Below are positions 30,501-49,762 of a stretch of 49,762 bases of DNA, in pieces. The stretch covers positions 1-49,762 of the forward strand of contig JAEUUF010000014.1 in NCBI GenBank assembly GCA_016787645.1. The letters run 5' to 3'. Both the position numbers and the translations under genes were made by a program. The DNA is from Cyclobacteriaceae bacterium. GTDB taxonomy: Bacteria; Bacteroidota; Bacteroidia; Cytophagales; Cyclobacteriaceae. Under the pieces are notes generated by a model that searched no databases, had not been told where the DNA came from, and saw only the letters and a program-made list of their open reading frames with translations. Numbering within the stretch: the first letter of the stretch is position 1; each line of letters starts with the position of its first letter.

Positions 30501-30721
30501 CGATGTATCGCTTTAACCCGGACCTGAGGGCCAAAGGACAAAATCCGTTCTGCTGGGATGGTGCCGAGGTAGATACTAAATTTGATCAGTACCTCGATGA
30601 AGAGATACGTTACAAGACGCTGAACCTCACCAACCCCGAGGAAGCAAAACGGCTGGTGGAGTTGGCGGAAAAAGACAACGAACAACGGTTCAAGGACATT
30701 AAGCATCTTTCAGAAGTATAA
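27524..30721 (+). CDS. nifJ: Pyruvate:ferredoxin/flavodoxin oxidoreductase lacking the internal ferredoxin domain
   Basis: This enzyme oxidises pyruvate and CoA to acetyl-CoA and CO2 and gives up two low-potential electrons. Domains in order: pyruvate-binding N-terminal (AAIYPITPSSDMGERADGW), domain II, the gamma-like domain (SDGTVSANKNAIKII), then directly the thiamine diphosphate domain (GDGWAYDIGFGG from 860; NTGGQASKATP). The four Cys of the proximal cluster are present: C705, C708 (CSGCGE), C733 (NATGC) and C969. The eight Cys of the two-cluster ferredoxin domain, normally between the gamma and TPP domains, are absent: about 40 residues without Cys join VPTGTKRLEYR to CSGCGE. Length is 1065 against roughly 1170-1230 usually. 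The reading frame is unbroken. The DHOD-like gene follows after 11 bases, then a flavodoxin gene. Confidence 0.93.
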   Translation: MKNQYINTDGNTAVANIAYGFSEVAAIYPITPSSDMGERADGWATEGRKNIFGEKVDVVQMQSEGGAAGAIHGSLTAGAMSTTFTASQGLMLMVPNMFKIAGEMLPVVFHVSARSLACQALSIFGDHSDVMATRGTGFAMLCSANVQEAQDFAAISHLTTLEARIPFLHFFDGFRTSHSIQKILPLSYDELKNMLDMKFVEEFRAMALKPESPVCKVGAQNPDVYFQGRETVNKYYDACPGLVQKYMKLFAEKTGRTYKLFEYVGAPDADRMIIAMGSGVETIEETINYLNKKGEKLGLLKVRLYRPFSVRDFLGEIPKSVKKVAVLDRTKEPGSIGEPLYLDVVASLLPERPGIRIIGGRYGLSSKEFTPSMVKAVYEHLQNDGWHNFTVGINDDVTKKSITVKEEIDTEQEGIVRCKFWGYGSDGTVSANKNAIKIIGDNTDRFVQGYFQYDSNKSGGWTISHLRFGKKPIHSEYLLNKVDFVALHRPQYIGQYDILEGITEGGTFLINSSQKPENIFRLFTKDMQDTIRQKKIKVYAIDASKIAKGVGLGGRISSVMQTAFFKVSGVLPEDEAIKLIKKFVEKQFARKGQEIVEMNWKAIDASAAAVIEVPIPAESDKFAEVTQVVPPGSGWFADHIVDPILRLKGDSIPVSAMPLNGAVPTGTKRLEYRGVPGNAATWIEKLPFVENPYIAEPYIEYPPSCSGCGEVPYIHLVTQLYGDRMVIANATGCTSIYGGTFPLIPYTKDKNGRGPAWANSLFEDNAEFGMGMRLAIDANRRQLKTNVEAYLPTLADGPLKTALENGLRLFDEVNKEAKENADEIRKQLAEQGKKDKSAALAKITELEDYFVDKSVWIFGGDGWAYDIGFGGLDHVMASNRNINILVVDTEVYSNTGGQASKATPRGAVAKFASDGKKLSKKNLGLMMSSYSNAYVASVNMGTDREKTALAFVEAEKHKGPSIIIAYSPCIAHGYNMVLAKKQSEKAAKSGYWPMYRFNPDLRAKGQNPFCWDGAEVDTKFDQYLDEEIRYKTLNLTNPEEAKRLVELAEKDNEQRFKDIKHLSEV

Positions 30722-30732
30722 ACCCAAATCGT

Positions 30733-31779
30733 ATGGCCATTGATCTCACCACTGATTACGGCGGACTAACGCTGAAAAATCCCATCGTCATGGGGGCCAG
30801 CAACATTGTTACCGATGTGAACAACCTCGTGAAACTGGAACAGGCCGGAGTAGGGGCCATTGTGTACAAATCGCTGTTCGAGGAACAGATTCAGCTGGAG
30901 TCCTATCAACTGGACCAGGTGCAGGAGACGTACAGCAACTGGGATGCCGAACATGAGTCGTTCTTCCCTTCCGCGCGCCACGCCGGTCCTACTGAGCACT
31001 TGCGCCAACTGAAAGAAGCCAAGAGCAAGCTCTCCATTCCCCTCATCGGCAGCCTCAACTGCGTCAACGACGATTCCTGGCTGGAGTATGCCTTGAAGAT
31101 GATTGAAACCGGTATTGACGGACTCGAACTTAATTTCTATAACAATAACGTTGACTTCAGCCTGAAGTCCGCCACGATTGAGGAGCATCAGTTAAAAACC
31201 CTGGAACTCGTGCGTGCCGGTGCGCGACAGATTCCGTTGTTTGTCAAGCTAAGCCCGTTCTATTCCAATACCCTTCGCATGATTTCAGAAATGGATCGCA
31301 TCGGGGTGGATGGCGTGGTGCTGTTCAATCGACTCTTCCAGCCTGACATCGACATTGACCTGGAGGAGCATCATTTCCCATACAACTTCAGCAGCGATGC
31401 CGACAACCGGCTTGCCCTGCGGTATTCCGGACTGTTGTACAAGAAGATCAAGGCAGGCATTATTGCCAACACCGGGATTTTCAGCGGACGGGATGTGGTG
31501 AAGATGATATTGGCCGGGGCTACCGGTGTTCAAGTAGTCAGCACCGTGTACAAGAAAGGCATTCACCAGGTGGAGGTCATGCTGGAAGAAATGACAGCAT
31601 GGATGAAGAAGAAGAAGTACAACAGCCTGGATGACTTCCGCGGCAAGCTCTCCAAAGAGAACCTCTCCGACCCCTTCGCCTACAAGCGCGCGCAGTATGT
31701 GGACATTCTAATGAAATCAGAGATGTTCCTTCAATACCATCCCAAGCGCGGAGGCCTGGCTCATAAAGACGACATTTAA
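30733..31779 (+). CDS. Dihydroorotate dehydrogenase-like flavoprotein
   Basis: The 348-residue TIM-barrel protein resembles class 1 dihydroorotate dehydrogenases in the FMN regions (LTLKNPIVMGASN; PLFVKLSPFYSN; GVVLFNR; IIANTGIFSG; GATGVQVVST). The catalytic Cys/Ser loop and orotate-binding residues are not clearly conserved, and the protein is often annotated only as DHOD-like. It lies 11 bases after the pyruvate oxidoreductase gene, and this pairing is frequent in bacteria, so a redox role tied to that enzyme is more likely than pyrimidine synthesis. The substrate is unknown. Confidence 0.8.
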   Translation: MAIDLTTDYGGLTLKNPIVMGASNIVTDVNNLVKLEQAGVGAIVYKSLFEEQIQLESYQLDQVQETYSNWDAEHESFFPSARHAGPTEHLRQLKEAKSKLSIPLIGSLNCVNDDSWLEYALKMIETGIDGLELNFYNNNVDFSLKSATIEEHQLKTLELVRAGARQIPLFVKLSPFYSNTLRMISEMDRIGVDGVVLFNRLFQPDIDIDLEEHHFPYNFSSDADNRLALRYSGLLYKKIKAGIIANTGIFSGRDVVKMILAGATGVQVVSTVYKKGIHQVEVMLEEMTAWMKKKKYNSLDDFRGKLSKENLSDPFAYKRAQYVDILMKSEMFLQYHPKRGGLAHKDDI

Positions 31780-31852: not shown

Positions 31853-32356
31853 ATGGCAAAGATTGGAATATTCTTCGGGTCCACGGAAGGCAACACAGAG
31901 CGCGTCGTCGGCCAAATTCAGGAGGCGTTCGGCGCTGATGCAGAGTCATTTAACGTCAACTCGGCCACCGCGGATGATATGCAGCCGTTCCCATACATCA
32001 TCTTGGCTTGCCCCACGTGGGAGATCGGCCAACTTCAGGAAGACTGGGAAAGCTTCATCGACGAGATTGAAAAAGTAGACTATACCGGCAAGAAGGTAAC
32101 CTACCTTGGTCTTGGCGATGCAGATGGCTATCCTGACACTTTCCTCGATGCGCTGGGAACGATTCACGACCGCATTAAAGACAAAGGAGCCAAGTTCGTG
32201 GGTGCATGGCCTACCGACGGCTACAATTTTGAAGCATCCAAAGGTGTGGTCGACGGCAAGTTCCTCGGCCTGGCGATCGATGAAGACAACCAGAAAGATC
32301 TCACCGCCGGCCGCGTTGAAAAATGGGTGGCCGAGCTGAAGAAAGAGTTCGTTTGA
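31853..32356 (+). CDS. fldA: Flavodoxin, long-chain type
   Basis: This 167-residue FMN-binding electron carrier has the phosphate loop GSTEGNTE (9-16), the 50s loop PTWEIGQLQEDW and the 90s loop GLGDADGYPDTF. An inserted segment after it (VGAWPTDGYNFEASKGVV) marks the long-chain class. The protein is acidic, as expected for docking to redox partners. It lies 73 bases after the DHOD-like gene in what is probably one operon with the pyruvate oxidoreductase. It is the obvious electron acceptor for that enzyme, which lacks its own ferredoxin domain, and a candidate donor to the NADH-module-free complex I encoded downstream. Confidence 0.92.
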   Translation: MAKIGIFFGSTEGNTERVVGQIQEAFGADAESFNVNSATADDMQPFPYIILACPTWEIGQLQEDWESFIDEIEKVDYTGKKVTYLGLGDADGYPDTFLDALGTIHDRIKDKGAKFVGAWPTDGYNFEASKGVVDGKFLGLAIDEDNQKDLTAGRVEKWVAELKKEFV

Positions 32357-32442: not shown

Positions 32443-33495
32443 ATGGCTGCTATTCGGTTCAAGAAGCCCGTCTTTCCCATCAGCGAGCCGCTGTTGGGTT
32501 ACCTCCGACAAACACACCGGGAGACCGACGTGCCCATTTCTTACGGTGATCTCCTGCATCATAACAGTGCCGTAACCCTCTTTGACAAGAAAGGGAGAGA
32601 TACGCTTTGGGAGACGCTGATCTACGGGGAGGCGGACCGGCAGTTTATCCACGAGTGTCTAAGGAAAGTATACGCCGAACTGAAAGTAGGTGGTGATGTA
32701 GGCGTCATTGATCACCTCTACGTGGACCGGGTTGACTACTGCCTGTATGCCAACACCCATCCCGTACGGGTGAGGATCGTCAATCGCCTGAACGACCTTT
32801 TTGACTACTTCTATGTCAAGCATGCCGATGCCTCGCGTATCTATGGGATGGAGCTCGAGCACTTGCTTTCGCCGAACCGGATCGGTTACCTGGTGAAAGG
32901 AAACACACTTATCGAAGAGCATATCCCGGGAGTCCCCGGCGATTCATTTATCAAAGAGTACCTGCCGCGCCAGGATTACAACCCGTTGCGGGTGGCTAAG
33001 GAGTTTGTGAAATTTAATGAACGAAGCCTGGTGCAACTACTGGGTGATATGCGCAATGATAACTTCGTCGTAGAGGTGATACCGGATTTCGATGAACTGT
33101 ATTTTCGTCTTCGTGCCATTGACTTCGACCAGTTTTGTTTTGAAGGTGATGTAAAGATTTACATGCCCCAGTTCTTCAAGGAGAACAACCCGATCATCAA
33201 CATTGGATTGAAAAACCTTTCTTCTGTGCTGGAATTGCAGTACCAGCGCGAGGAACGCCAGCGGCTGCTCACGCGCGTGCGGGCCGGTGGTGCACACCTG
33301 GCAAACCTGCTGGAGGCGATGCGTGTGGAGGAACTTTCCACGAAGGAGAATGTCAAAATACTCCGTGAGTCACTGGCTGACCTTTACCAAGACTCCTCTT
33401 TTCTGCTGGCCGCTACCATGGGAGAGATCTTGCGAAATAGCCTACGAATGCTTGAAGTGTATCCGATACGGAAACGGAAAGCGTTGAAGGAATAA
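32443..33495 (+). CDS. Protein of unknown function with a kinase-like catalytic loop
   Basis: The 350-residue soluble protein was not recognised. Residues 201-230 read GDMRNDNF (D202, N207), then after about 20 residues LRAIDFDQ (D227, D229). This resembles the catalytic D-x4-N and metal-binding D-F-G/D-W-D elements of aminoglycoside phosphotransferase or HipA-like kinases. A candidate substrate or nucleotide segment IEEHIPGVPGDSF (157-169) lies before it, and the last 90 residues are helical (YQREERQRLLTRVRAG). A Gly-rich loop is not evident. It follows flavodoxin after the inverted repeat and shares its strand. A kinase fold is inference only; a role linked to the redox genes is possible. 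Confidence 0.6.
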   Translation: MAAIRFKKPVFPISEPLLGYLRQTHRETDVPISYGDLLHHNSAVTLFDKKGRDTLWETLIYGEADRQFIHECLRKVYAELKVGGDVGVIDHLYVDRVDYCLYANTHPVRVRIVNRLNDLFDYFYVKHADASRIYGMELEHLLSPNRIGYLVKGNTLIEEHIPGVPGDSFIKEYLPRQDYNPLRVAKEFVKFNERSLVQLLGDMRNDNFVVEVIPDFDELYFRLRAIDFDQFCFEGDVKIYMPQFFKENNPIINIGLKNLSSVLELQYQREERQRLLTRVRAGGAHLANLLEAMRVEELSTKENVKILRESLADLYQDSSFLLAATMGEILRNSLRMLEVYPIRKRKALKE

Positions 33496-36722: not shown

Positions 36723-38132
36723 TTAGATCAGGCTGGCAATGTAATCGTACACCCCGCTCACAAACCCGATGGCTGCGATACCAACGAGACAAATCGTGAA
36801 GGCGAGCTTCTCCTGCCAGGTAGAAGTAAGAGTGGCCACGGGAGCCTCGCTCTTGTTGATGAACATGGCCTTGACCACCAGGAGATAGTAGTACAGTGAG
36901 ATGGTGGCGTTGATCACCGCAATGAAGACGAGGATGTAGAGCCCTTTTGCCGCTGCGGCGGTGAAGAGGAAGAATTTTCCAAAGAAACCGGCCACCGGCG
37001 GGATGCCCGCCAGCGAGAACAATGCCAGCAACATGATCAGGCTCAGGCGCGGGTTGGTGAGGTAGAACCCGTTGAAGTCTTCGATGTTTTCCTTGCCGGT
37101 TGCATTGAACACCATGCTCAGCACTCCGAAGACGGCCAGGTTGGAGAGAGAATAAATCATCATGAAGTAGACCACGGTGGTCATTCCGAGGTTGTCATTG
37201 TTCACAAAACCCAGCATCATGAAGCCGGCTTGCGTGATCGATGAGAAGGCCAGGAAACGTTTCAGGTTCTTCTGGCGCAAAGCGAAAAGGTTACCAACGA
37301 CCATCGTAGTCACCGACAGCAGATAGGCCGCCAGTGTCCATGACTTGGGGTAGAGGGTGAATACATTATAGAGTACCAGCATCAAAGTGAAGAGCGCCGC
37401 ACCTTTGGAGACCACGGAGAAATACATGGTCACCGGCAAAGGCGAGCCTTCGTACACATCGGCTGTCCACAAGTGGAAGGGAACAAGCGAGAGCTTAAAT
37501 CCGAAACCGGCCACGAAAAGCACTAGCCCAAAAACAGAAAGTGCCTGCGCATCTGTAAGGGATGCCATTTCACTGAAGTAAAGCGTACCGTACGAACCAT
37601 ACAGCAACGACAAACCCATCAGCAGCACGGCAGAAGATACCGCGGACGACATCAGGAGTTTGATGCCTGCTTCAGCGCTGCGGCGAAGTTTCTTGTCAAA
37701 TGCGGCGAGGAGGGTGAGGGGAAGCGTGGCCGTCTCCAGCCCGAGGTACAACATGAGGAAATTTCCCGCTGAAATCATGAACGACATACCCATCAACGTG
37801 GAAAAGATCAGCATGTAAAAGGCACCGGTCTTGGGTTGGTTCTCAGGCTTGCGCAACCAGCTTGCCGACTGCAGCAGGATGATGAAGGTCGATATGTTCA
37901 GGATCAACTTGAGCGTATTGCGCAGTGGATCACTAAGGAACATCTGGCCAAACAGGCTGGTGGTCTCTACCGGGTAGAAGCCAACCGCTGTAACGAGACC
38001 GAAACCAAAGAGGGTGCCATTCACCAACCTGCCGTTGTCTTTCCCTTCCGTGAGATCAACAATGAGGTGGTAAAGTACAAGCAGGGTAAGCAGGACTTCG
38101 TTCCGTAGAATATATACATCGGTCCAGGTCAT
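36723..38132 (-). CDS. nuoN: NADH-quinone oxidoreductase-like subunit N
   Basis: This antiporter-like membrane subunit of complex I has 469 residues and about 14 helices. The characteristic segments are visible: LMLYLGLETATLPLTLLAAF with the TM5 Glu, LVPFHLWTADVYEGSPLPVT, and FLAFSSITQAGFMMLGF. It is the last gene of the nuo operon; its ATG overlaps the nuoM stop. A perfect 7-base inverted repeat (36708-36726) overlaps its stop codon and may help end the transcript, though no T-run follows. It forms part of the proton-pumping arm. Confidence 0.95.
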   Translation of the reverse strand: MTWTDVYILRNEVLLTLLVLYHLIVDLTEGKDNGRLVNGTLFGFGLVTAVGFYPVETTSLFGQMFLSDPLRNTLKLILNISTFIILLQSASWLRKPENQPKTGAFYMLIFSTLMGMSFMISAGNFLMLYLGLETATLPLTLLAAFDKKLRRSAEAGIKLLMSSAVSSAVLLMGLSLLYGSYGTLYFSEMASLTDAQALSVFGLVLFVAGFGFKLSLVPFHLWTADVYEGSPLPVTMYFSVVSKGAALFTLMLVLYNVFTLYPKSWTLAAYLLSVTTMVVGNLFALRQKNLKRFLAFSSITQAGFMMLGFVNNDNLGMTTVVYFMMIYSLSNLAVFGVLSMVFNATGKENIEDFNGFYLTNPRLSLIMLLALFSLAGIPPVAGFFGKFFLFTAAAAKGLYILVFIAVINATISLYYYLLVVKAMFINKSEAPVATLTSTWQEKLAFTICLVGIAAIGFVSGVYDYIASLI

Positions 38133-39628
38133 AGTCTTGCAATTAGGTGTTGAATAATGTCGCCGAGCGGTTCGCGGATGAGGGCCGACAACCAGAAGGG
38201 CGCCATCCCGATAGCGGTGATGGAGATCACCAGGGTGATGGTACTTACTTTCTCAAACCACTTTGCATCCTTCAGTTCGTTGTAGTGCTCGTTCTTGATC
38301 GGCCCCAGTAACAGTATGCCCACCACGCGCAGTATGTATACGGCGGTGATGACGATGGACGAACAGGCGACAATCGTGGCGATACGATGGAAGGTATCCG
38401 AATTCTGGAAACTCCCCACGAAAATGGTCATCTCGGCAACGAAACCACTCAGGCCTGGCAGCCCCAGCGAGGCAAGACCGGCAATGACGTAGACCACAGA
38501 GAGGAAGGGGATCACTTTCATTAGTCCACCCATCTCGTCGATCATCCGGGTGTGGGTGCGACCGTAGATCATCCCTATCAACGCAAAGAAGAGTGCCGTC
38601 ATCAGTCCGTGGGAGATCATTTGAAGAATCGCGCCAGTCGTGGCTGTCTCATTCATCATGAGGAGTGCGAACAGCACCAGCCCGCAGTGACTGACGGAAG
38701 AATAGGCGTTGATGTACTTGAGGTCTTTCTGCCAGATCGCTCCAAAGGCGCCGTACACCACGCTGATGGTCGTGAGGATAATGAAGATCCAGGCCATTGC
38801 ATGTGCACCTTCGGGCAACAGGTACATGGCTACCCGGAAAGCGCCATAGCCGCCGAGTTTCATCAATACGCCTGCGTGCAGCATCGATACTGCCGTGGGC
38901 GCCGACGCGTGACCGTCGGGCGACCAGGTGTGGAACGGGAAGAGAGCACCGAGTACTCCAAACCCAATAAAGGTGAATGGGAAGAAGAACAGCTGCGCAT
39001 CGCGGGGAATGCTCACCTTGGCTATCTCGGTAAGATCGAAGGTAAGACGACCACCTTCCGGCGAAGAGTTGAAGTAGATGCCAAGCAAGCCAACCAACAG
39101 CAATGCCGATCCCGCCATGAGCATCAACGTCAGTTTCATGGCGGAGTATTCTTTCGGTCCGCTGCCCCAGATTCCAATTAACAAGTACATAGGAATCACC
39201 GCCACTTCGTAGAAGAGGAACATAGTGAAGAGGTCGAGCGAAATGAAGAACCCAAACACCCCGGAAGCGAGGATGATCAGGGAGATAAAGAACTCCTTGG
39301 TTAGAAAATCGACCTGCCATGAGGCAAAAACGCCTGCGAACGTGACCAGCGAGGTCAGCACGATCATGGAAAGTGAGATGCCATCAATGCCGAATTTGTA
39401 CTGGATATTGAATGCTTCATACCATGTTGATGTAGAGACCAGGAGCATTGCATCCGTGTTGCCTGCATTGCGCAAGCTATAGAAGAGATAAACGAGGTAG
39501 AAGGAGAACAGCAACTGTGCACCCATGCCTACAGCGGAAATGACACGGACCTGCTTGAGGTCTTTCACCAGGGCAATACCTGCTACGGTGAGAACCGGGA
39601 TGAGGATAAGAAAGAGTAGGGGATTCAT
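38129..39628 (-). CDS. nuoM: NADH-quinone oxidoreductase-like subunit M
   Basis: This antiporter-like subunit has 499 residues. Landmarks are FLFYEVAVIPMYLLIGIWGS (TM5 Glu), FPFHTWSPDGHASAPTAVSM (TM7-8 with conserved Lys replaced locally by the usual FHTWLPDAH-type sequence), and INAYSSVSHCGLVLFAL. It belongs to the pumping arm of complex I between subunits L and N. It starts eight bases after the nuoL stop. Confidence 0.95.
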   Translation of the reverse strand: MNPLLFLILIPVLTVAGIALVKDLKQVRVISAVGMGAQLLFSFYLVYLFYSLRNAGNTDAMLLVSTSTWYEAFNIQYKFGIDGISLSMIVLTSLVTFAGVFASWQVDFLTKEFFISLIILASGVFGFFISLDLFTMFLFYEVAVIPMYLLIGIWGSGPKEYSAMKLTLMLMAGSALLLVGLLGIYFNSSPEGGRLTFDLTEIAKVSIPRDAQLFFFPFTFIGFGVLGALFPFHTWSPDGHASAPTAVSMLHAGVLMKLGGYGAFRVAMYLLPEGAHAMAWIFIILTTISVVYGAFGAIWQKDLKYINAYSSVSHCGLVLFALLMMNETATTGAILQMISHGLMTALFFALIGMIYGRTHTRMIDEMGGLMKVIPFLSVVYVIAGLASLGLPGLSGFVAEMTIFVGSFQNSDTFHRIATIVACSSIVITAVYILRVVGILLLGPIKNEHYNELKDAKWFEKVSTITLVISITAIGMAPFWLSALIREPLGDIIQHLIARL

Positions 39629-39636
39629 GACCGGGT

Positions 39637-41547
39637 TCAGTTAAGGTATAAGATCAACAAAGCCAGCACAAGCACACCGGAGGCGAAATACCAGATATAC
39701 AACTGAACATGTCCCGACTGCATCCGCTTGATGGCGGCGGAACCAGCCACGGTGGAATTGCCAATGAAATTCATCGTGCCATCCACAATATGCCGGTCGA
39801 ACCAGGCGACAGGGCGTGAGATAAACTGGAAGATGATGCTCTTCGTGATGAAAAGATAAATTTCATCGATATAGAACTTATTGTACGCTGCTGTATATAC
39901 GCCACTCAAGCTCTTTGAAATGGCATCCGGACGCAAGCTTGGTCTTGCATAGAGCCATGCAGCAGTCAGGATGCCGATAACGGCAATAGCAATGGACGGT
40001 CCAGCGATGGACCAATGGAAGGCTGTTTCGAACGGTTTGTTATCGCTCGTCACCAGGTCATGGAACGGCACAAAACCGGCGACAACGGAAGCAATCGCGA
40101 GAAACATCAAGGGAACGGTCATGACTACCGGCGACTCATGGGGTGCATGATGATAGGCGGGTGTCTGGTTCCAGAAGATCCGGAAGTAGAGACGGAACAT
40201 GTAGAAAGCAGTGATGCCAGCGACCAGCCACTGCACAGCGAAAATCAGTTTGTTGTGCTCAAATGCAGCGACAAGAATTTCATCCTTGCTGAAGAATCCT
40301 GAGAGCGGCGGGATGCCCGCGATAGTCAGGCAGGCAACGAGGAAGGTAAGGTGGGTGACGGGCATTGACTTGCGCAGACCTCCCATCTCGGTCATCAGGT
40401 TGCTGTGCACGGCATGAATCACCGAGCCTGCGCCGAGGAAGAGGAGTGCTTTGAAGAAAGCGTGAGTGAAGAGGTGGAAAAGGGAAGCCATGTACCCAAG
40501 GCCGGCTTCTCCGCCATATCCGGAAACGCCGAGGGCCACCATCATGTAACCGATCTGCGATAAGGTTGAAAAGGCGAGTACTCGTTTAATGTCCAGTTGT
40601 GTGCAGGCAATAACCGCCGCAAACAACGACGTGAAGCTGCCTACGTACATGATAACAGTAAGGGCATCTGGTGCTGAAAGGGCGTAGGCGGGGAACAACC
40701 TGGCCACGAGGTACACACCGGCGACCACCATGGTGGCCGCATGGATAAGTGCGGAGACCGGCGTCGGGCCTTCCATGGCATCGGGCAGCCAGATGTGCAA
40801 GGGGAACATGGCTGACTTACCGGCACCACCCATAAAGATGAGCAACAAGGCCCATGTAGTGACTGACAAGCCCATGAACGCGGCTGTGGAAGCTTGCCCA
40901 ATAACAGGACCCTGCAAACTAGTCAGTGTTTGGAATTCAAATGTGCCAGTGTTGAAAGAGAGAATGAGTATCCCGACCAGGAAACCCAGGTCAGCAAACC
41001 GGGTGACGATAAACGCTTTCTTGGAGGCGGCGACTGCGGAGGGCTTTTGATAATAAAACCCAATCAGCAGGTAGGAAGAAACACCGACTAGTTCCCAGAA
41101 GATATACATCTGGAAAATATTGGTAGCCACCACCAAACCAAGCATGGAGAAAGTGAATAGCGACAGGAAGGCAAAGTACCGGGTGTACCCTTTTTCACCC
41201 TTCATATAACCAATGCTGTACAAGTGCACCATCGCGGAAACAAGCGTGATGACCACCAGCATCATCACGGAGAGCGGATCAAGCAGGATGCCGAGATGAA
41301 TAATCAATTTGTCCGTCAGCGGCAACCACGTAATCTTGTAGGCCTCGATGGCCTCAAAACCAGCTTCGCCAGCCTCTTGGGTGAAATAGGTGAATGCGGT
41401 GGCACAGGACAGCGCGGCAATGATAAACAGGTTAGCCGTTCCAATGATTCCGGCAAGGGCAACAGGAAGCCTTTTGCTCAGCAGGCCAAGACCCAGGAAC
41501 GTGACCAGCGGAAGAAGAAGAATGATTAAGGTGTACGCGTAGTCCAT
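39637..41547 (-). CDS. nuoL: NADH-quinone oxidoreductase-like subunit L
   Basis: This is the largest antiporter-like subunit (636 residues). It has IFWELVGVSSYLLIGFYYQK (TM5 Glu), GKSAMFPLHIWLPDAMEGPT, ALIHAATMVVAGVYLVAR, and the C-terminal extension with a final membrane helix (YIWYFASGVLVLALLILYL) that forms the lateral helix along the membrane arm. It lies between nuoK and nuoM with tight spacing. Its presence with M and N shows that the full set of pumping subunits is kept although the NADH module is not encoded here. Confidence 0.96.
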   Translation of the reverse strand: MDYAYTLIILLLPLVTFLGLGLLSKRLPVALAGIIGTANLFIIAALSCATAFTYFTQEAGEAGFEAIEAYKITWLPLTDKLIIHLGILLDPLSVMMLVVITLVSAMVHLYSIGYMKGEKGYTRYFAFLSLFTFSMLGLVVATNIFQMYIFWELVGVSSYLLIGFYYQKPSAVAASKKAFIVTRFADLGFLVGILILSFNTGTFEFQTLTSLQGPVIGQASTAAFMGLSVTTWALLLIFMGGAGKSAMFPLHIWLPDAMEGPTPVSALIHAATMVVAGVYLVARLFPAYALSAPDALTVIMYVGSFTSLFAAVIACTQLDIKRVLAFSTLSQIGYMMVALGVSGYGGEAGLGYMASLFHLFTHAFFKALLFLGAGSVIHAVHSNLMTEMGGLRKSMPVTHLTFLVACLTIAGIPPLSGFFSKDEILVAAFEHNKLIFAVQWLVAGITAFYMFRLYFRIFWNQTPAYHHAPHESPVVMTVPLMFLAIASVVAGFVPFHDLVTSDNKPFETAFHWSIAGPSIAIAVIGILTAAWLYARPSLRPDAISKSLSGVYTAAYNKFYIDEIYLFITKSIIFQFISRPVAWFDRHIVDGTMNFIGNSTVAGSAAIKRMQSGHVQLYIWYFASGVLVLALLILYLN

Positions 41548-41553
41548 AGGTCA

Positions 41554-41877
41554 TTAGAATTTCAGTTCGTCAACATCATCCACACTGACGGTGGCAAACT
41601 GCCGGTAAATATTAATGATCAGGGCGATCGCCACAGCGGCTTCGGCGGCGGCAATGGCCATGACAATAAGTGCGAAGAAGTGACCTTCCAGCCGATGTGG
41701 GAAGAGGTAGTGGTTGAAGGCAGTAAAATTGATGTTGACCGCATTCAGCATCAGTTCCACTCCCATCAGCATGGTGATGAGGTTCCTCCGGATCAGCACG
41801 CCCATCAGCCCGATGAAGAACACGAGGATGCTCAGGATGATCATGTAGTCGAGCGGTATTTCGGCCTGTAGGTTCAT
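41554..41877 (-). CDS. nuoK: NADH-quinone oxidoreductase-like subunit K
   Basis: The 107-residue membrane subunit has three helices. The conserved Glu residues of the proton path are visible in LITMLMGVELMLNAVNINF and IAAAEAAVAIALIINIYR. It contacts subunits J and L in the membrane arm. The start overlaps the end of nuoJ by four bases. Confidence 0.95.
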   Translation of the reverse strand: MNLQAEIPLDYMIILSILVFFIGLMGVLIRRNLITMLMGVELMLNAVNINFTAFNHYLFPHRLEGHFFALIVMAIAAAEAAVAIALIINIYRQFATVSVDDVDELKF

Positions 41878-42383
41878 GTGCGATTTTTTAAGGCGATGAA
41901 GATGGACCCTACCAGGGCGGCCAGCAGCAGGATGCTGATCACTTCAAAGGGTAATGCGTAACCATTTTCTCCTGTACCCATCAGTTGCAGTCCAATGGTG
42001 CGCATGTCCGTGCCAATGGCAGGTTTCGAGCTTGGCTTGAAGGCAAACTGAAGGATGGTGACAGCCGATAGGGCAATTCCCGCGATCGCTGTAAGGGCAC
42101 CGGAGAGCAAGTGACTGCGCCTGGGTGGCTCAAGCTTGCTGTTGATCTGGCTGGTGAGCAAGATGGAGAAGATGATCAGCACGACGATACCGCCGGCATA
42201 TAAAATCAGCTGGACAGCCGCCAGGAACGGGAAGTTCATCATGTAGTACAACCCGGCCATCGCCACAAGCACAAACAGGAGATAGATAGCCGCACGGAGG
42301 ATCTTCCGGCTCGTGATGGATAGAATAGAAAACACCACGATGGAGATCGCAAGAATAAAGAAGATGATCTTGGGGCCGGTCAT
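41874..42383 (-). CDS. nuoJ: NADH-quinone oxidoreductase-like subunit J
   Basis: The 169-residue membrane subunit has five helices. The conserved segment FLAAVQLILYAGGIVVLIIF (TM3 pi-bulge region with Tyr and Gly-Gly) is present, and the final helix FEVISILLLAALVGSIFIAL is typical. It overlaps nuoI by four bases and nuoK by four, so it is translated in the same operon. Confidence 0.94.
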   Translation of the reverse strand: MTGPKIIFFILAISIVVFSILSITSRKILRAAIYLLFVLVAMAGLYYMMNFPFLAAVQLILYAGGIVVLIIFSILLTSQINSKLEPPRRSHLLSGALTAIAGIALSAVTILQFAFKPSSKPAIGTDMRTIGLQLMGTGENGYALPFEVISILLLAALVGSIFIALKNRT

Positions 42384-42877
42384 TCGTTCGTCGTTATGGA
42401 GGAGGACCCTGGTTTGTTCAGCACTTTGACCAGTTTCGACTTGTCAAAAACAGCATGCTCAAACGTGTTGTCAAATTTCAGCGCGTTTTCGTCACAAGCC
42501 GGAACACAAAGTCCGCAGAACGTGCAGGTATCGAGGTGATAAATGTATTGGTCAAGTATCTTCTTGGTTCGGCCATCGGCGCCGACCACTTTCTTGGCGA
42601 TGACTTCGATGGAGCCATTCGGGCAGCGGCGTGCACAGGTATTGCACACGTTGCATCGATGATGATTGTTCTCGTCGTGGATAAGAATGAGTTCGCCTTT
42701 GAAATTGCCGAACATCTTTAGTTCAGCGCGGTTTTCGGGATACTTCTGTGTAACGATGGTGCTGGGCTTTACAAAGTATTTGCCCGTCACTTTCATGCCG
42801 TTCACCAGCGAGGCTACTCCCTGGTAAATTTCCCGGAAGTAGTTGCCAACTTCTTTGAGAGTGCTCAGAAGTGCCAT
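42380..42877 (-). CDS. nuoI: NADH-quinone oxidoreductase-like subunit I (two [4Fe-4S] clusters)
   Basis: This 165-residue ferredoxin-like subunit of the hydrophilic arm has both cluster motifs intact: [12 protein letters not shown] and [11 protein letters not shown]. With B, C and D it makes the quinone module. The frame is open to 42943, but that start would run 79 bases into nuoH; the ATG at 42877 leaves a 13-base overlap and gives the usual N-terminal helix. In complexes without subunits E, F and G, as in chloroplast and cyanobacterial NDH-1, this subunit receives electrons directly from the carrier; the same is inferred here. Confidence 0.94.
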
Positions 42878-43941
42878 TGCATGAGGATTAAGAAGGAAAT
42901 GAGAATCAGGTTCATCAGGTTGATGGGCAGCAAATATTTCCATTCCAGCGCCAGGAGCTGGTCAATGCGCAGGCGCGGGAAAGTCCACTTGAACCACATC
43001 ATCAGGTAGATCACAAAGGCGGTCTTGCCGAAGAACCAGAACACCGGCGGAATGTAATCCATCACTTTGTTGAAGGCATCAAAGTGCCAGATATGAAAGG
43101 GCAGCCATCCGCCCAGGAATAACGTGGTGGCGATGGCGGCGATGATGAACATGTTCATGTACTCGGCGAGGAAGAAGAACGCGAACTTGATGCCGGAATA
43201 CTCGGTATGAAACCCGGCCGTGAGTTCCGATTCTGCTTCCGCCAGGTCGAAAGGTCCGCGGTTGGTCTCCGCAGTGCCGGCCACCAGGTAGATCACAAAC
43301 GCGATCCAGGCCGGGATGTGGCCTTTAAAGATCCACCAGCCATCTTCCTGCGAGGCGATAATTTCTGAAAATTGCATGGAGCCTGCGTAAGCAATGATGC
43401 AGAGGAGGGCAAGGCCCACAGAAAGTTCATAACTGATCACCTGGGCACCGGAGCGCATTGCGCCGATTACTGAATACTTGCTGTTGCTGGCCCACCCGGC
43501 AATGAGTACGCCAATCACACCCATCGAGGAGATGGCAAGAATGTACAGTACACCGATGTTCAGATCGATGGCCTGAAGCCCCTTGGCAAACGGAATCGAC
43601 CCGATGGCCATGATGGAAGCGACGATGACGATAAAGGGAGCGATGTTGAAGAGAAAGCTGTCAGCGTTGCGGATGAAAATCAATTCCTTCATCAGCAATT
43701 TGATGAGGTCGGCGATAGTTTGAAATACTCCGCCGGGCCCCACGCGGTTGGGACCGAGACGGTTTTGCATGCGTGCGCAAATCTTGCGTTCGGCGTATAC
43801 AAGGTAGAGCCCAAGCACAGCGTAGAAAGCGAGAAGAACCAGCCCTAGCAACACCATGGAAATCAAGCCTGCCCAAAACGGGCTGAAGGTGGTGTCGAGC
43901 CAGGAGGTAATGGAGTTAACAAGTGGGCCAAAGTCGTACAT
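42865..43941 (-). CDS. nuoH: NADH-quinone oxidoreductase-like subunit H
   Basis: The 358-residue membrane subunit joins the quinone site to the pumping arm. The signatures [20 protein letters not shown] and [20 protein letters not shown] are present, with the conserved acidic residues of the E-channel. It has eight or nine membrane helices. It follows nuoD after only three bases. In 14-subunit operons the genes for E, F and G lie exactly between D and H; they are absent here. Confidence 0.96.
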
Positions 43942-43944
43942 ACA

Positions 43945-45066
43945 CTATCGGTCAATATCAGGTATCACCAGGTCAAGAGATCCGCTGATGGCCACGAGGT
44001 CGGCGATCTTGTGCTCGGCAGCGATCTTATTAATGATAAACAGGTTCGAGAAATTCGGCGTGCGGTACCGGATGCGCGCCGGGGTAGGACCTCCATCACT
44101 CACGATGTAGACGCCAAGTTCGCCGCGGGCAGTTTCTACGCGCTGGTAGAACTCACCTTTTGGCGGCTTGATGGCTTTGAGTTCCAGCATGATGGGCCCC
44201 TGCGGAATGTTGTCGATCAACTGATCGATGATATCAAGCGACTCCCACATCTCCCGCATCCTAACCAAGTACCGGTGGTACGTATCACCTTGGGTGTAGG
44301 TGACTTCATTGAATTTCACCAACGGGTAGGCGCTATAGGGAGCGATCTTGCGAATGTCACAATGAAATCCTGAACCGCGACCACTGGGACCCGTGACACC
44401 ATAATTGATGGCGTCTTCCAGGCTCATATACCCGATGCCTTTGGTGCGTTCCTGGAAAATGACGTTGCCCGTGAGCAACTGGTCGTATTCAGGAAGCTTT
44501 TTGCGGAAGTAGGTAATGAATTCCCGTGTGCGTTTTTGAAAATTCGGATGCACATCGGCCATGAGGCCGCCAGGAGTGATAAAACTCTGCAGGAGTCGTG
44601 ACCCGGTAGATTCTTCAAAGATGTCGAGAATCTTCTCGCGGTCGCGGAGGCCGTAAAAGAACGTGGTCAACGCGCCAAGGTCCATGCCGAAGGCTGACCA
44701 CCAAAGTTGATGGGAGGCGATACGATTCAGTTCGGCGAGTATGGTACGAATGTATTTTACGCGATCGCTGACTTGCACACCCATCGCATTTTCAACGCAA
44801 AGGGCAACGGCTTCATTGTTGATGTGTGCGGAGAGGTAATCCATCCGGTCGGTAAGGTGTACCAACTGCGGATAGGTGAGTGATTCACTCATCTTTTCGA
44901 TGCCGCGGTGAATATACCCGCAGTGCGGCCGGATCCATTTTACTTTCTCTCCCTGGAGGCAAGTCTCAAAGCGAAGCACACCGTGAGTAGACGGGTGCTG
45001 AGGCCCCATGTTGATCACGTATTCTTCGCGTTCCTTCAGGTCAAGATCCATCAGTGTTTCTTCCAT
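43945..45066 (-). CDS. nuoD: NADH-quinone oxidoreductase-like subunit D (49-kDa)
   Basis: The 373-residue subunit lines the quinone pocket. Landmarks are NMGPQHPSTHGVLRF (quinone-site His), HCGYIHRGIEKM, and the C-terminal RTPNFSNL...SLDLVIPDIDR ending. It is separate from subunit C, unlike the C-D fusion of some other bacteria, including Bacteroides. The start lies just past the nuoC stop. Confidence 0.96.
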   Translation of the reverse strand: MEETLMDLDLKEREEYVINMGPQHPSTHGVLRFETCLQGEKVKWIRPHCGYIHRGIEKMSESLTYPQLVHLTDRMDYLSAHINNEAVALCVENAMGVQVSDRVKYIRTILAELNRIASHQLWWSAFGMDLGALTTFFYGLRDREKILDIFEESTGSRLLQSFITPGGLMADVHPNFQKRTREFITYFRKKLPEYDQLLTGNVIFQERTKGIGYMSLEDAINYGVTGPSGRGSGFHCDIRKIAPYSAYPLVKFNEVTYTQGDTYHRYLVRMREMWESLDIIDQLIDNIPQGPIMLELKAIKPPKGEFYQRVETARGELGVYIVSDGGPTPARIRYRTPNFSNLFIINKIAAEHKIADLVAISGSLDLVIPDIDR

Positions 45067-45069
45067 CGC

Positions 45070-45525
45070 TCAGCGTTCAAGGGTGAATGAATCTTTGTAG
45101 TCCTTCCGCAGGGGATAACCAACCCAATCGTCATCAAGAAAGATTCTCCGCAGGTCAGGGTGGTTTTCAAATTTTATCCCCAGCAGGTCGAAGGCTTCCC
45201 GTTCGAAGTATTCGGCAGCTTTCCACAGGTCGCTTACGGTGGCGACCATCGGGTTGGTTTTGTCAGCGAGAATGACACGCAGCACTACGATGTGGGGAAA
45301 CTTCGTCGAAGTCAGGTGGTAGACCACATGGAAACCATCTTTGCGGTCGAGTCCCGTAAGGCAAAAGAGATAATCCAGATAGGTATCCGGGTTCTCTTTG
45401 AGGTGTTTGGCTACCTCATGAAGTCTCGCCGCTGGGATAATAAATTCCGGGTACTGTTTGCTGATGCCGGGTTGGGCCTCAGGAACCAGGGTTTGGATGA
45501 CGGTGGTTAGTTGCTCGACTTGCAT
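45070..45525 (-). CDS. nuoC: NADH-quinone oxidoreductase-like subunit C (30-kDa)
   Basis: The 151-residue hydrophilic subunit has the family signature [20 protein letters not shown] followed by the DDW-x-GYPLRKDY ending. It supports subunits B and D in the quinone module. The start overlaps the end of nuoB by 19 bases. Confidence 0.95.
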
Positions 45526-46151
45526 GCTTCATCAAGGTTCTGGTTGTCATGAGGTTCTACGTACCGGGATTTGTCTTCAGTAGACGTGTCCAAGGTCGGC
45601 TCGGGGCGTGCTTCGCCAGATTTGGCGAGGCTTTCGGCTTTGATTTTTCGTTGTAGCTGCATGATGCCATACAAAAGCGCCTCCGGACGGGGAGGGCAGC
45701 CGGGGATATACACATCAACAGGAATCACCTGGTCAACACCGCGAACGACAGAGTAAGAGTTATAGTAAAAGGGTCCACCGGAAATGGCGCAGGCCCCCAT
45801 GGCAATTACATATTTTGGATCGGCCATCTGATCATACAAGCGTTTCAGTACCGGAACCATCTTGCGTACGATTGTACCGGCCACGACAATTACATCTGCC
45901 TGGCGGGGTGAGGCACGGTACACTTCGATGCCGAAGCGTGCGAAGTCGTGGCGCGGTGCCCCTGTGGCCATCATCTCAATACCACAACAACTCGTGGCGA
46001 ACGTGAGGGGCCAAACAGAGTTCGAGCGTCCCCAGTTAATAATTTCATCCATGGTCGATACCCAGACGGGTGCGCCGCCCTTGCGGAGTTCTTCCAGCGA
46101 CTCGTTGTCGTTGAAGTCTTCGTACGGTACCGATTTGATGTCTATTCCCAT
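45507..46151 (-). CDS. nuoB: NADH-quinone oxidoreductase-like subunit B (cluster N2)
   Basis: This subunit holds the terminal [4Fe-4S] cluster that reduces quinone. The ligands are present: the Cys pair in [19 protein letters not shown], and PGCPPRPE. From this start it has 214 residues; the frame is open seven codons upstream (46172), which would overlap nuoA by 31 bases instead of ten. After the core, a hydrophilic tail of about 45 residues (from [15 protein letters not shown]) extends the protein beyond the usual end. The tail has no obvious motif. Confidence 0.94.
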
Positions 46152-46492
46152 ATCAAAGCTTTTTTCTTCCACGCATACAACAGACCCAGGCCCAGAACGG
46201 TGAAGAAGATGAGGATTTCAACAAAGGCAGTCAGCCCGATCTCCCGCATCACCACCGCCCACGGATAAATAAAGACAGTCTCCACGTCGAAAATCAGGTA
46301 GATGATGGCGAAGAGGTAGTAGCCGACGTGGAATTGGATCCAGGTGGGTCCTTCGGTGGGTATCCCGCACTCGTAGGGCTCTGATTTGGCGGCGTTAACG
46401 GAGTGAGGAGCAGCGTAATGGGAGAAGAGGATGGCCCCACCCACCAGCAGCGCGGCGGTGAGGAAGAAGGTGAGTAGCGAATAACTTTCCAT
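46142..46492 (-). CDS. nuoA: NADH-quinone oxidoreductase-like subunit A
   Basis: The 116-residue membrane subunit has three helices and the conserved loop [14 protein letters not shown] with the functional Cys near the quinone entry, followed by [18 protein letters not shown]. It is the first gene of the eleven-gene operon. The 160 bases upstream hold its presumed promoter, but no clear match to the local pattern was seen. Confidence 0.95.
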
Positions 46493-46652
46493 AGGTCTTT
46501 TTCGGCGTTTTTCGAACCCTTCTGGCCCGATCTTCAGGATCCAAGTAGCCCGTTTCCGCTCGTCTATGGTATGATATTCCCGGCTAGGGAGGGGTGACTT
46601 TTGTCAGGTTAGCAAGCCATTGCAGGTTGCGATTAATGGAGCGATTCAGTGA

Positions 46653-46680
46653 TTTACCGCAGAGGCGTGGAGGCGCAGAG
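46653..46680. repeat. Left inverted repeat framing the GxxExxY gene
   Basis: This 28-base sequence (core CCGCAGAGGCGTGGAGGCG) matches the reverse complement of 47132-47159 at 25 of 28 positions. It lies 64 bases before the enclosed gene. Confidence 0.75.
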
Positions 46681-46744
46681 ATTGTCAGGATTTCCTTACA
46701 GGGTGAAGAATTGAGTTCTACTCCCTTCATGGTTTATTGCCAGC

Positions 46745-47131: not shown

Positions 47132-47159
47132 CTCTGCGTCTCCGCGCCTCTGCGGTTAA
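47132..47159. repeat. Right inverted repeat framing the GxxExxY gene
   Basis: It opens CTCTGCGTCTCCGCGCCTC and is the reverse-complement partner of 46653-46680. It abuts the TAA stop of the enclosed gene. Solitary related words occur at 33522, and more distant ones at 34776 and 36664. Confidence 0.75.
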
Positions 47160-47173
47160 TCGTCTCATCAACA

Positions 47174-47945: not shown

Positions 47946-48989
47946 CTAATTGATCGCCCAACTGCTTCCGCCAGCAAGAAGCGACTCAAGGTTTCCTTCA
48001 CCTTTGGTCTCAATCTCGTGTTGGATTTGTTCGGTAACCCGCACATCATACGGTTTGATGGGCAACGCCTGCAGAACTCCCATCGGGCGCGGCAGCGTTT
48101 CGCTGTAGGTCATGTTGGCCAGGATGAAGGCAAGCGTGGAGTCCTTCTCGTTGTGAACGAGCAGATCGCTGATCGAGTAGGTATCCAGTGAAACAACTTT
48201 CGGAGTATACCCGTCGAGGATGATGCCTTTGTCTTTCTTCTTCCCGAATACCAGGGGTTTCTCGTGCTCGAGGAAGATGGTGTGCTCATCGCGTGTGTCC
48301 GCGTTGGTGTAAAGGTCAAATGCGCCGTCGTTGAATATGCGGCAGTTGGTATAGATCTCCACAAAAGAGGTGCCTTTATGATTGTAGGCGCGCCGCAGCA
48401 ATTCTTGTAACTGGGTGCGGTCCTTGTCGTGACCGCGGGCAACGAAAGAGGCACCGGCACCCAGGGCCAATCCTACCGGGTTGAACGGGTCGTCCAGCAC
48501 ACCGAGCGGAGATGACTTGGTAACCTGGCCACGGTGGGAGGTAGGAGAGTATTGTCCTTTGGTGAGGCTGTACACCTCATTGTTGAACATCATGATGTTG
48601 AGATCCACATTTCTCCGGCAGGTGTGAATGAAGTGGTTGCCGCCAATACTCATGTTGTCGCCGTCGCCGGTGACTACCCATACGCTGAGATCGGGGCGCG
48701 CAATCTTCAGTCCCGAGGCGATGGCCAATGCACGTCCGTGGATGGAGTGGAAGCCATATGTTTCCATGTAATAGGGAAAGCGTCCGGAGCATCCGATACC
48801 GGATACGTACACAATCTTTTCCTTGGGAAGGCCCAGTTCAGGCATCAGCCGCTGCGAGGGCGACAGCACCGAAATGGCACCGCAACCGGCGCACCAGCGT
48901 ACGTCGACGTTGGGCTTGAAGTCTTTGGCAGTATAAATGAGGCTCCCTTCATGGGGACGCTCGAGGAGATTATCAATGGCGGTCTTCAT
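47946..48989 (-). CDS. korB: 2-oxoglutarate:ferredoxin oxidoreductase, beta subunit
   Basis: This subunit binds thiamine diphosphate and one [4Fe-4S] cluster. The 347-residue protein has W32-C33-A-G-C36-G, GIGCSGRFPYY and the TPP motif GDGDNMSIGGNHFIH followed by FNNEVYSLTKGQYSPTS, the form typical of KorB. With KorA it converts 2-oxoglutarate and CoA to succinyl-CoA and CO2 while reducing ferredoxin or flavodoxin. The start overlaps the korA stop (ATGA). Other 2-oxoacids cannot be excluded as substrates, but the sequence fits the 2-oxoglutarate group best. Confidence 0.9.
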   Translation of the reverse strand: MKTAIDNLLERPHEGSLIYTAKDFKPNVDVRWCAGCGAISVLSPSQRLMPELGLPKEKIVYVSGIGCSGRFPYYMETYGFHSIHGRALAIASGLKIARPDLSVWVVTGDGDNMSIGGNHFIHTCRRNVDLNIMMFNNEVYSLTKGQYSPTSHRGQVTKSSPLGVLDDPFNPVGLALGAGASFVARGHDKDRTQLQELLRRAYNHKGTSFVEIYTNCRIFNDGAFDLYTNADTRDEHTIFLEHEKPLVFGKKKDKGIILDGYTPKVVSLDTYSISDLLVHNEKDSTLAFILANMTYSETLPRPMGVLQALPIKPYDVRVTEQIQHEIETKGEGNLESLLAGGSSWAIN

Positions 48990-49762
48990 ACGGTGACTTC
49001 TTTTTCGGTGAGTATTGAGGTGATCTTGTCGACAAGCTCGACGGACTTGAACGGGCGGCCCTGTATTTTATGGATGCCGGTGATGGGCTTGAGGAATTTG
49101 GCCTGCAGCATCCATTGGAGATGACCGGAGTTCAATTCGGGAACAATTATTCGGTTAAAGCGCTTCAACACGTCGCCCAGGTTTTTGGGGAACGGGTTGA
49201 GGTAACGAAGGTGTAGGAAAGAAATAGGTGTACCATTAGCTTTCAGCTTTTCGAAAGCTGTCCGCGCTGCCCCATAGGTGCTTCCCCAACTCAACAAAAG
49301 AGTTTCGCCTTCTGAATCTCCTTCAACCACCGCCTCCGGTATGTCGTTGGCGATGCCGTCGACTTTCTCCTGGCGCAGGCGTACCATCTTTTCGTGGTTA
49401 GCTGAGTCGTGCGATACGTTGCCGCTGCCGTCCTCTTTTTCAAGACCGCCGATGCGGTGTTCCATTCCCTGGAATCCGGGGATGGCCCACATGCGGCGAA
49501 GGGTCTTCGGATCACGGCGATACGGTCCGAATTCTTCGATGTCTGTAGCGAAATTGGCTTCCAGATCGGGCAGCTCGGAGATTTTTGGTATCCTCCAGGG
49601 CTCAGAAGCCTGCCCGATGTAACCATCAGAGAGGAGGAGTACCGGTGTCATGTATTTCAGTGCGATCCGTGCAGCCTCCATGGTCATGGCGAAGCAATCG
49701 GAAGCACTCGCCGCGGCGAGTACCGGCATGGGAGCTTCCCCATGGCGACCGAACATGGCCAT
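48986..49762 (-). CDS. korA: 2-oxoglutarate:ferredoxin oxidoreductase, alpha subunit (C-terminal part)
   Basis: Only the last 258 residues are in the window; the gene runs off the right edge, so the first Met seen is not its start. The part present has FGRHGEAPMPVLAAASASDC, MTPVLLLSDGYIGQASEPW, then a C-terminal domain (LLLSWGSTYGAARTAFEKLK; LHLRYLNPFPKN; IIVPELNSGHLQWML) as in KorA. In the fused two-domain form typical of Bacteroidota the gamma-like domain precedes this part. It supplies the substrate-binding half of the enzyme. Confidence 0.9.
   Translation of the reverse strand: MAMFGRHGEAPMPVLAAASASDCFAMTMEAARIALKYMTPVLLLSDGYIGQASEPWRIPKISELPDLEANFATDIEEFGPYRRDPKTLRRMWAIPGFQGMEHRIGGLEKEDGSGNVSHDSANHEKMVRLRQEKVDGIANDIPEAVVEGDSEGETLLLSWGSTYGAARTAFEKLKANGTPISFLHLRYLNPFPKNLGDVLKRFNRIIVPELNSGHLQWMLQAKFLKPITGIHKIQGRPFKSVELVDKITSILTEKEVTV

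Follow-up and report, generated by a model that had tools for sequence, protein, structure and literature searches.

Headless complex I and the locus under study

The eleven-subunit NDH complex of plants takes electrons from ferredoxin. We describe here an eleven-gene nuo operon without an NADH module in the genome of a Cyclobacteriaceae bacterium, found on a contig that was analysed over its whole length (the window, contig C8, 49,762 bp; the genome measures 4.02 Mb in 28 contigs and is rated 99.83% complete). A headless Nuo is described in Bacteroides fragilis (PMC7002350) and a headless NDH-I in Prevotella (PMC6560451), and both share with the window the same 11 subunits, the lack of NuoEFG and the presence of NQR. 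The B. fragilis enzyme is reported to have no NADH:quinone activity, with its donor left as X(red) (PMC7002350). The available text of the two papers names no donor for these complexes, whereas the window operon is flanked by a cassette of pyruvate oxidoreductase (PFOR) and flavodoxin and by korAB, and relatives carry Rnf instead. A second precedent is Campylobacter jejuni, which has Oor and Por and in which the 2-oxoacid oxidoreductase Oor passes electrons through FldA to Nuo and on to menaquinone (PMC4257069), as we propose for the window. C. jejuni, however, keeps NuoG and has 12 subunits (PMC7002350), whereas the only NuoG-type sequence of our genome lies in a hydrogenase cluster, and 2-oxoglutarate dehydrogenase (OGDH) and pyruvate dehydrogenase (PDH)-type genes are present as well. 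The eleven-subunit enzyme of Desulfitobacterium hafniense also has nuoABCDHIJKLMN without EFG, and PFOR and ferredoxin were proposed as its donors from protein abundance (PMC11238625), yet it belongs to another phylum and gene linkage to PFOR is not among the evidence in the available text of that report. The same 2024 paper recalls an unsuccessful effort to identify a single donor protein shared by every bacterium that has an 11-subunit complex (PMC11238625).

A flavodoxin-fed or headless Nuo is thus not new in general, given the precedents in Bacteroides, Prevotella and Campylobacter. What is new is the observation that headless Nuo and Rnf exchange places beside a PFOR-flavodoxin cassette; no earlier report of this was found in the open-licence literature, which is weak evidence of absence. 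Rnf adjoins the same PFOR-DHODl-flavodoxin cassette in relatives, like the nuo genes in the window, but it is an unrelated ion pump that delivers electrons to NAD+ and not to quinone (PMC12174285). On the strength of gene content and comparison, we consider it probable that the operon encodes an 11-subunit ion pump without NADH module, fed by PFOR and KorAB through the flavodoxin of the cassette, in the place that Rnf takes in relatives.

The nuo operon of the window

The operon lies unbroken on the minus strand (36723-46492) in the order nuoA-B-C-D-H-I-J-K-L-M-N, with all eleven frames open and nuoE, nuoF and nuoG not among them. Spacing between the genes ranges from -79 to +8 bp and amounts to 3 bp between nuoD and nuoH. 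This uninterrupted arrangement, including the short nuoD-nuoH gap, had been claimed by an earlier sequence-only reading and is borne out by the frames together with NCBIfam and Pfam profiles, to which all family assignments of window proteins refer:

46142..46492, minus strand, nuoA (PF00507)
45507..46172, minus strand, nuoB (NF011391 over cut-off; 4/4 Cys ligands of N2 kept)
45070..45525, minus strand, nuoC (TIGR01961 at 117.9 bits, below the cut-off of 122.45)
43945..45066, minus strand, nuoD (NF004739 over cut-off; aligned quinone-site H28, Y77 and D129 kept)
42865..43941, minus strand, nuoH (NF004741 over cut-off)
42380..42943, minus strand, nuoI (best match TIGR01971 at 74 bits, below the cut-off of 113; 8/8 Cys of N6a/N6b)
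41874..42383, minus strand, nuoJ (best match NF005168, below its cut-off)
41554..41877, minus strand, nuoK (NF004320 over cut-off)
39637..41547, minus strand, nuoL (NF005141 over cut-off)
38129..39628, minus strand, nuoM (TIGR01972 over cut-off; L226 at the TM7 Lys position, new H251)
36723..38132, minus strand, nuoN (TIGR01770 over cut-off)

The true start of NuoI is probably an internal ATG at 42877. By its gene content the operon is predicted to encode an 11-subunit (headless) complex I of a known kind, and the nearest named NuoM relatives, 84-86% identical, come from metagenome-assembled genomes (MAGs) labelled Cyclobacteriaceae, Cytophagales or Bacteroidetes. A promoter scan returned 12 candidates against a shuffle mean of 13.3, hence no excess, while 32 terminator-like sites were counted against 15.8 in shuffles.

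The PFOR-flavodoxin cassette and the kor genes

The genes on either side of the operon are the following:

27524..30721, plus strand, PFOR of 1065 aa (TIGR02176 over cut-off)
30733..31779, plus strand, DHOD-like protein, DHODl (NF005741 over cut-off)
31853..32356, plus strand, long-chain flavodoxin, fld (TIGR01752 over cut-off; net charge -15)
32443..33495, plus strand, p350 (no Pfam or NCBIfam match)
47946..48989, minus strand, korB, predicted 2-oxoacid oxidoreductase beta subunit (best match TIGR02177 at 246.6 bits, below the cut-off of 261.9)
48986..49762, minus strand, korA, cut by the contig end (best match TIGR03710, partial)

The sequence-only reading had placed PFOR with flavodoxin at one end of the operon and the kor genes at the opposite end, and the two flanks are as it described, but korB is not adjacent to nuoA. 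Two genes stand between them, one that we take to be of the GxxExxY type and then a nucleoside-phosphorylase gene. The former (46651-47161) is framed by a 30-nt inverted repeat that is 90% complementary, with 0 occurrences of the core pattern expected by chance, and it looks like an insertion. The window PFOR has a single CxxC motif and no Fer4 domain by Pfam, and therefore lacks the usual 2[4Fe-4S] domain. The gene for p350 adjoins fld at ten other loci (L019, L020, L022, L043, L126-L129, L133, L135); an AlphaFold2 model of the protein built from 5 sequences was poor (mean predicted local distance difference test score, pLDDT, 39.3).

Rnf in place of Nuo beside the same cassette

Comparison of gene order in relatives, which had been proposed together with the operon's first description, revealed the same cassette with rnfBCDGEA where the window has nuo. 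The clearest case is G064, a genome of the same genus as the window that has no NuoD match and carries the run PFOR-DHODl-fld-p350-rseC-rnfB-rnfC-rnfD-rnfG-rnfE-rnfA-(333 aa)-korB-korA, with 82% identity to the window in PFOR, 77% in flavodoxin and 85% in KorB (NCBIfam profiles identify RnfB, C, D and A; RseC, RnfG and RnfE are assigned by the Pfam families RseC_MucC, FMN_bind and Rnf-Nqr). Its rnf genes occupy the position of nuo in the window, where a small number of other genes border the operon at both ends, and tblastn found no rnf remnant in the window. A 14-gene nuo that includes E, F and G is present in two more members of this genus, G144 and G173. Overall, the cassette adjoins Rnf in nine loci examined (L126-L134; L134 is fragmentary and lacks PFOR, and no p350 was found in L130, L131, L132 and L134) and headless nuo in six: the window, L019, L020, L022, L043 and G220 (= L102/L135). 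The NuoF-like genes beside PFOR in relatives, considered as NADH heads, turned out to be RnfC within an rnfBCDGEA run.

The number of exchanges was addressed with a tree of the joined PFOR, DHODl and flavodoxin sequences (14 rows; L134 excluded, the PFOR sequences from L019 and L020 incomplete). Rows linked to nuo and rows linked to rnf are interspersed in it, giving three switches, at least two of which are forced by starred branches, and a single clade of nuo-linked cassettes is rejected by the approximately unbiased (AU) test at p 1.9e-6, the groups for this and the second AU test below having been named after earlier trees were inspected. The nuo genes have a different history. In an IQ-TREE phylogeny of nuoD/H/L/M (66 rows, with L103 as a long branch), the window and L018, L019, L020, L021, L043 and L102 group as a single clade (SH-aLRT 100) to which L066 is sister (100), and these together nest inside other Bacteroidia sequences at nodes of 99 and 100, while the family's remaining 10 headless rows diverge at deeper nodes. 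Grouping these 10 with the window clade as one unit is rejected (AU p 1.3e-6). An earlier FastTree phylogeny gave the same order more weakly, with two nodes toward the window at 0.35 and 0.46. Since the history of nuo is distinct from that of the cassette, nuo may have arrived laterally beside a native cassette.

KorB also points to repeated encounters. One KorB clade mixes nuo-linked (window, G220, L019, L020) and rnf-linked (G064, G216) members with G267, and members of a second lie upstream of nuoA at 10 loci of the family and also in the Chitinophagales MAG L091. As the KorB sequences beside nuo stem from two deep clades, nuo and kor would have met at least twice.

Co-occurrence across the family

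We surveyed 148 family genomes, 15 of which have the headless nuo type (NuoD types were separated by E-value and query coverage, short fragments excluded, and the other nuo types were inspected at few loci: four of the 45% type and two of the 14-gene type). Among the matches listed, 83 genomes had some match to PFOR; 50 of these (52 loci) were counted as having it, and the 33 with weaker matches only (unscanned, and resembling KorB, KorA or Vor in size and location) were excluded at a line of E 7.1e-26 chosen post hoc. RnfC and NuoF/HoxF were separated on the span of the PF01512 match, which is 432-441 nt in the former and at least 500 nt in the latter, fragments being excluded; the name RnfC rests on NCBIfam for G064 alone and on gene order for L127-L134, L136, L140 and L141. 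KorB was counted at E < 1e-90 (52 loci, 48 genomes), weaker KorB-like matches being dropped.

With PFOR counted among the matches listed, RnfC or headless nuo occurs in all 50 genomes that have PFOR versus 4/98 of those without it, at a Fisher p of 4e-35 that ignores kinship. Kinship among the genomes makes such p values too small, and the counts by genus, 35/35 with PFOR versus 3/49 without on the same matches, are safer, as are the tree tests. The listed PFOR matches show no comparable link to either of the remaining nuo types (Fisher p 0.08 and 0.14). In 12/15 headless genomes KorB is located no more than 10 kb from nuoD, versus none of 86 loci of the other types (0/66 and 0/20); among the three remaining headless genomes, KorB is on another contig in two, and one has only a weaker match, its nuo genes sitting on a 6.5-kb contig.

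The second nuo type, whose NuoD is about 45% identical, is widespread among family members, with 66 nuoD loci, and 52/66 such genomes have no NuoF-type 51K protein. One of its members, L119 (G119), has nuoA-D and H-N without EFG and a NuoI of 371 aa.

Conserved redox residues and a change in NuoM

Alignment to the E. coli K-12 subunits showed that NuoI keeps 8/8 cluster Cys and NuoB 4/4, hence 12/12 ligands for N6a, N6b and N2. NuoD H28, Y77 and D129 align with E. coli H224, Y273 and D325, which we take to be quinone-site residues. The NuoD sequence has no hydrogenase-type CxxC nickel ligands, which sets it apart from group 4 [NiFe] hydrogenases. Every tested charged residue is kept in NuoA, H, K, L and N. 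NuoM keeps three of four, as the Lys of the seventh transmembrane helix (TM7; E. coli K234) is replaced by Leu (L226), so that the canonical TM7 Lys is present in NuoL and NuoN and absent from NuoM.

This replacement is general among the nearest relatives. We compared 90 distinct headless NuoM sequences, 11 from family genomes and 79 from the 80 best matches to window NuoM (L090 was removed by the length filter). The TM7 position holds L in 85 and I in 5, and all 90 carry a His at the position of E. coli L259 in the TM8 region while keeping E144, K265 and E407, although 90/90 here describes a trait of a single clade and not 90 independent events. Two 14-subunit relatives have K at the TM7 position and L at that of E. 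coli L259. The TM7 Lys is also kept in the five best solved homologues, four of them photosynthetic NDH subunits, according to the alignments, and in L119, the sole 45%-type complex examined. By joint alignment, the new His is one residue out of register with NuoL H254. A review states that every antiporter-like subunit has a key TM7 Lys paired with Glu-TM5 (PMC10212512), and no earlier report of the TM7/TM8 change was found in the open-licence literature, again weak evidence of absence. These sequences raise the tentative possibility that the headless complexes of Bacteroidota make up a pump variant of their own, in which the middle module, its Glu-TM5, Lys-TM8 and Glu-TM12 unchanged, has either a proton path rewired from Lys to His or a reduced stoichiometry and may be tuned to flavodoxin or ferredoxin, Rnf and headless Nuo being interchangeable outlets for low-potential electrons.

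The loss of the Lys also lends something to the view that the neighbouring genes share no pathway with the operon, or that the headless complex is merely a secondary ion antiporter. Antiport has been raised for Prevotella (PMC6560451), and the neighbours are unrelated at many Bacteroidales nuo loci. Yet an antiporter would have no need of the Fe-S ligands and tested quinone-site residues, all of which are kept, and unconnected neighbours fit badly with the repeated exchange, the co-occurrence of 50/50 versus 4/98 and the KorB adjacency of 12/15 versus 0/86, so that we regard this view as highly improbable.

NADH modules and carriers in the rest of the genome

Free NuoE, NuoF or NuoG were found neither in the operon nor elsewhere in the 99.83%-complete genome outside a Hox cluster on contig C13. 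Genome-wide, PF01512, PF01257 and PF10588 have one match each, all at C13:68.5-70.7 kb, and a search for the three missing subunits, suggested along with the original description, recovered only this cluster, with one match per family. It comprises (C13:66.2-70.7 kb, L007) a HoxE-HoxF fusion of 598 aa, a HoxU-HoxY fusion of 425 aa, a [NiFe] large subunit of 492 aa and a maturation protease, and is thus predicted to be an NAD-type [NiFe] hydrogenase rather than a spare NADH head. The genome therefore has neither the NuoEFG module with NADH site of a 14-subunit enzyme nor a NuoG kept without NuoE and NuoF as in the Campylobacter type, since PF10588 matches the HoxU-HoxY fusion only. The companion search for a second nuo operon returned only a NuoD-like gene on contig C3, with 24% identity, within a hydrogenase-4/group-4-like cluster. 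This membrane cluster (C3:142-149.3 kb, L008:4079-11340) has NuoD-, NuoB- and NuoH-like subunits.

One could imagine that HoxEF-HoxUY docks on the headless complex and supplies electrons from NADH or H2, as these are the only NuoE/F/G-type proteins of the genome and a NuoF/HoxF-type protein occurs in 11/15 headless genomes. However, these genes are tied to a hydrogenase of their own by both fusion and clustering, and PF01512 has no match in 4/15 headless genomes (G220, G268, G313, G321), G220 being a single contig; such docking seems to us very improbable in the window genome, and as a general answer a detachable Hox head is ruled out by these four genomes.

RnfC and RnfD were not found in the genome, where PF01512 and PF03116 match the hydrogenase and NqrB only. 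NqrA-E are all over cut-off at C25:77.3-81.9 kb (L014:6297-10874), with no nqrF seen next to them in the local list of open reading frames, and NADH would thus have another route to quinone. OGDH genes are present (SucA and SucB over cut-offs, with a neighbour that resembles Lpd by its first residues), as is a PDH-type E2. PFOR and KorAB as the sole 2-oxoacid route are ruled out by these genes, and together with NqrA-E they suggest that the headless Nuo pathway forms one branch of metabolism.

The most likely direct carrier is the flavodoxin of the cassette, in view of its net charge of -15, its retention in both the Rnf and the Nuo forms of the cassette and its place beside a PFOR without 2[4Fe-4S] domain. 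A ferredoxin or another low-potential protein might take its role, with PFOR and KorAB still the source of electrons: the plant enzyme sets a precedent (PMC12170339), relatives of a second PFOR type have a fused ferredoxin-like tail, and a 133-aa frame with a weak, partial PF12838 match remains as a possible ferredoxin. No clear small free 2[4Fe-4S] ferredoxin was seen among the genome's PF12838 matches (other ferredoxin families were not searched), and with the flavodoxin retained beside PFOR in both cassette forms we hold this alternative to be improbable.

Proposed electron path and energetics

Under the flavodoxin-fed reading, PFOR would oxidise pyruvate and KorAB 2-oxoglutarate, its predicted substrate, both reducing the cassette flavodoxin. 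Reduced flavodoxin would donate, directly as we infer, to NuoI (N6a/N6b), from which electrons would pass to NuoB (N2) and to a quinone, presumably menaquinone, at NuoD/NuoH. The drop in potential would then drive pumping in NuoL, NuoM and NuoN, the forward direction and the number of ions per electron pair being assumed here. Headless Nuo would in this manner fill the place that Rnf, a pump coupling reduced ferredoxin or flavodoxin to NAD+, has beside the cassette, one machine standing for Rnf and an NADH:quinone pump. If E0' is taken as about -420 mV (ferredoxin), -320 mV (NAD) and -70 mV (menaquinone) (PMC5861303), simple arithmetic gives, for two electrons, about 68 kJ when ferredoxin reduces menaquinone, 48 kJ when NADH does so and 19 kJ when ferredoxin reduces NAD (flavodoxin taken as similar to ferredoxin). 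Headless complex I could gain in one step what Rnf and an NADH:quinone pump gain in two.

That 2-oxoacid oxidoreductases feed the headless Nuo through flavodoxin, as the sequence-only reading had proposed, is the most likely account, with strong comparative support from the repeated exchange with Rnf, the 50/50 co-occurrence and korAB beside nuo from two KorB lineages; it is limited by OGDH and the PDH-type E2, next to which PFOR and KorAB are not the sole route, and by NqrA-E as a further way from NADH to quinone. The coexistence of these dehydrogenases with PFOR and KorAB also allows for flow in reverse, in which quinol and an ion gradient make reduced flavodoxin for CO2 fixation by PFOR and KorAB or for other low-potential reductions, while PDH and OGDH oxidise. 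Rnf, in the same place in relatives, can run backwards (PMC12174285). As both complex I and the oxidoreductases can work in either direction, the order of the genes does not settle the matter, but the sole direct precedent found, that of C. jejuni, runs forward (PMC4257069), and reverse flow appears unlikely to us.

Several observations weigh against the flavodoxin-fed reading. L021, a member of the window's own nuo clade, has no PFOR, kor, fld, DHODl or p350 in its flank, and labels for these genes are likewise missing from the available flanks of 69/80 loci of the best NuoM matches, many of them short contigs. The two pumps are not strictly exclusive, RnfC being present in 6/15 headless genomes; G019 and G078 even keep Rnf beside the cassette and have headless nuo elsewhere. 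Three of the 15 headless genomes (G204, G268, G313) have no PFOR among the matches listed, and G279, G303 and G318, half of the six genomes with PFOR but no RnfC, are 90-95% complete. The lost TM7 Lys of NuoM might signal weakened pumping. Finally, by a crude whole-protein count, the net charge of NuoI offers no docking clue, the window group being not clearly more basic (the 14-gene mean was discarded from this comparison, since its row L145 is a headless locus).

Other donor genes near nuo and rnf in relatives

Other relatives combine nuo or rnf with different candidate donors. G248 and G303 have a PFOR of 1546-1547 aa after nuoN. Relatives of it of 1637-1652 aa (about 36% identical), with a longer C-terminus, precede rnfC in G302, G050 and G199, and the C-terminal tail of the G302 protein, the only one scanned, has a single-cluster ferredoxin domain by Pfam. 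These PFOR genes for proteins of about 1650 aa lie directly before rnfC at L136:2188-7146, L140:6912-11861 and L141:2435-7348, and no separate rnfB was seen there. The PFOR-rnf run of G199 sits downstream of headless nuo, and in G321 a PFOR with 2[4Fe-4S] domain adjoins korAB-nuo.

Hdr-Mvh-type modules reduce ferredoxin in methanogens. Such genes follow nuoN in L066 (13490-20527), the Bacteroidales MAG that is sister to the window nuo clade, and encode HdrC, HdrB, HdrA and MvhD together with a [NiFe] large subunit that resembles VhuA; HdrA/B/C-like genes are also found upstream of nuoA in L031, L058 and L059. DHOD-like genes, 32-36% identical to that of the cassette, adjoin headless nuo of Bacteroidota upstream in L045, L072 and L088 and downstream in L091, with no PFOR in the available flanks. 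A flavodoxin-like gene (33-37% identity) lies a few genes downstream of nuoN in the Bacteroidia MAGs L064, L065 and L071.

Significance

The exchange with Rnf and the change in NuoM distinguish the window complex within the known headless kind. The latter offers a natural complex I without a Lys that pumping models treat as key (PMC10212512). The former, repeated beside one PFOR-flavodoxin cassette, amounts to a natural experiment that points to the class of the electron donor, and the donor question becomes testable with a few soluble proteins and membranes.

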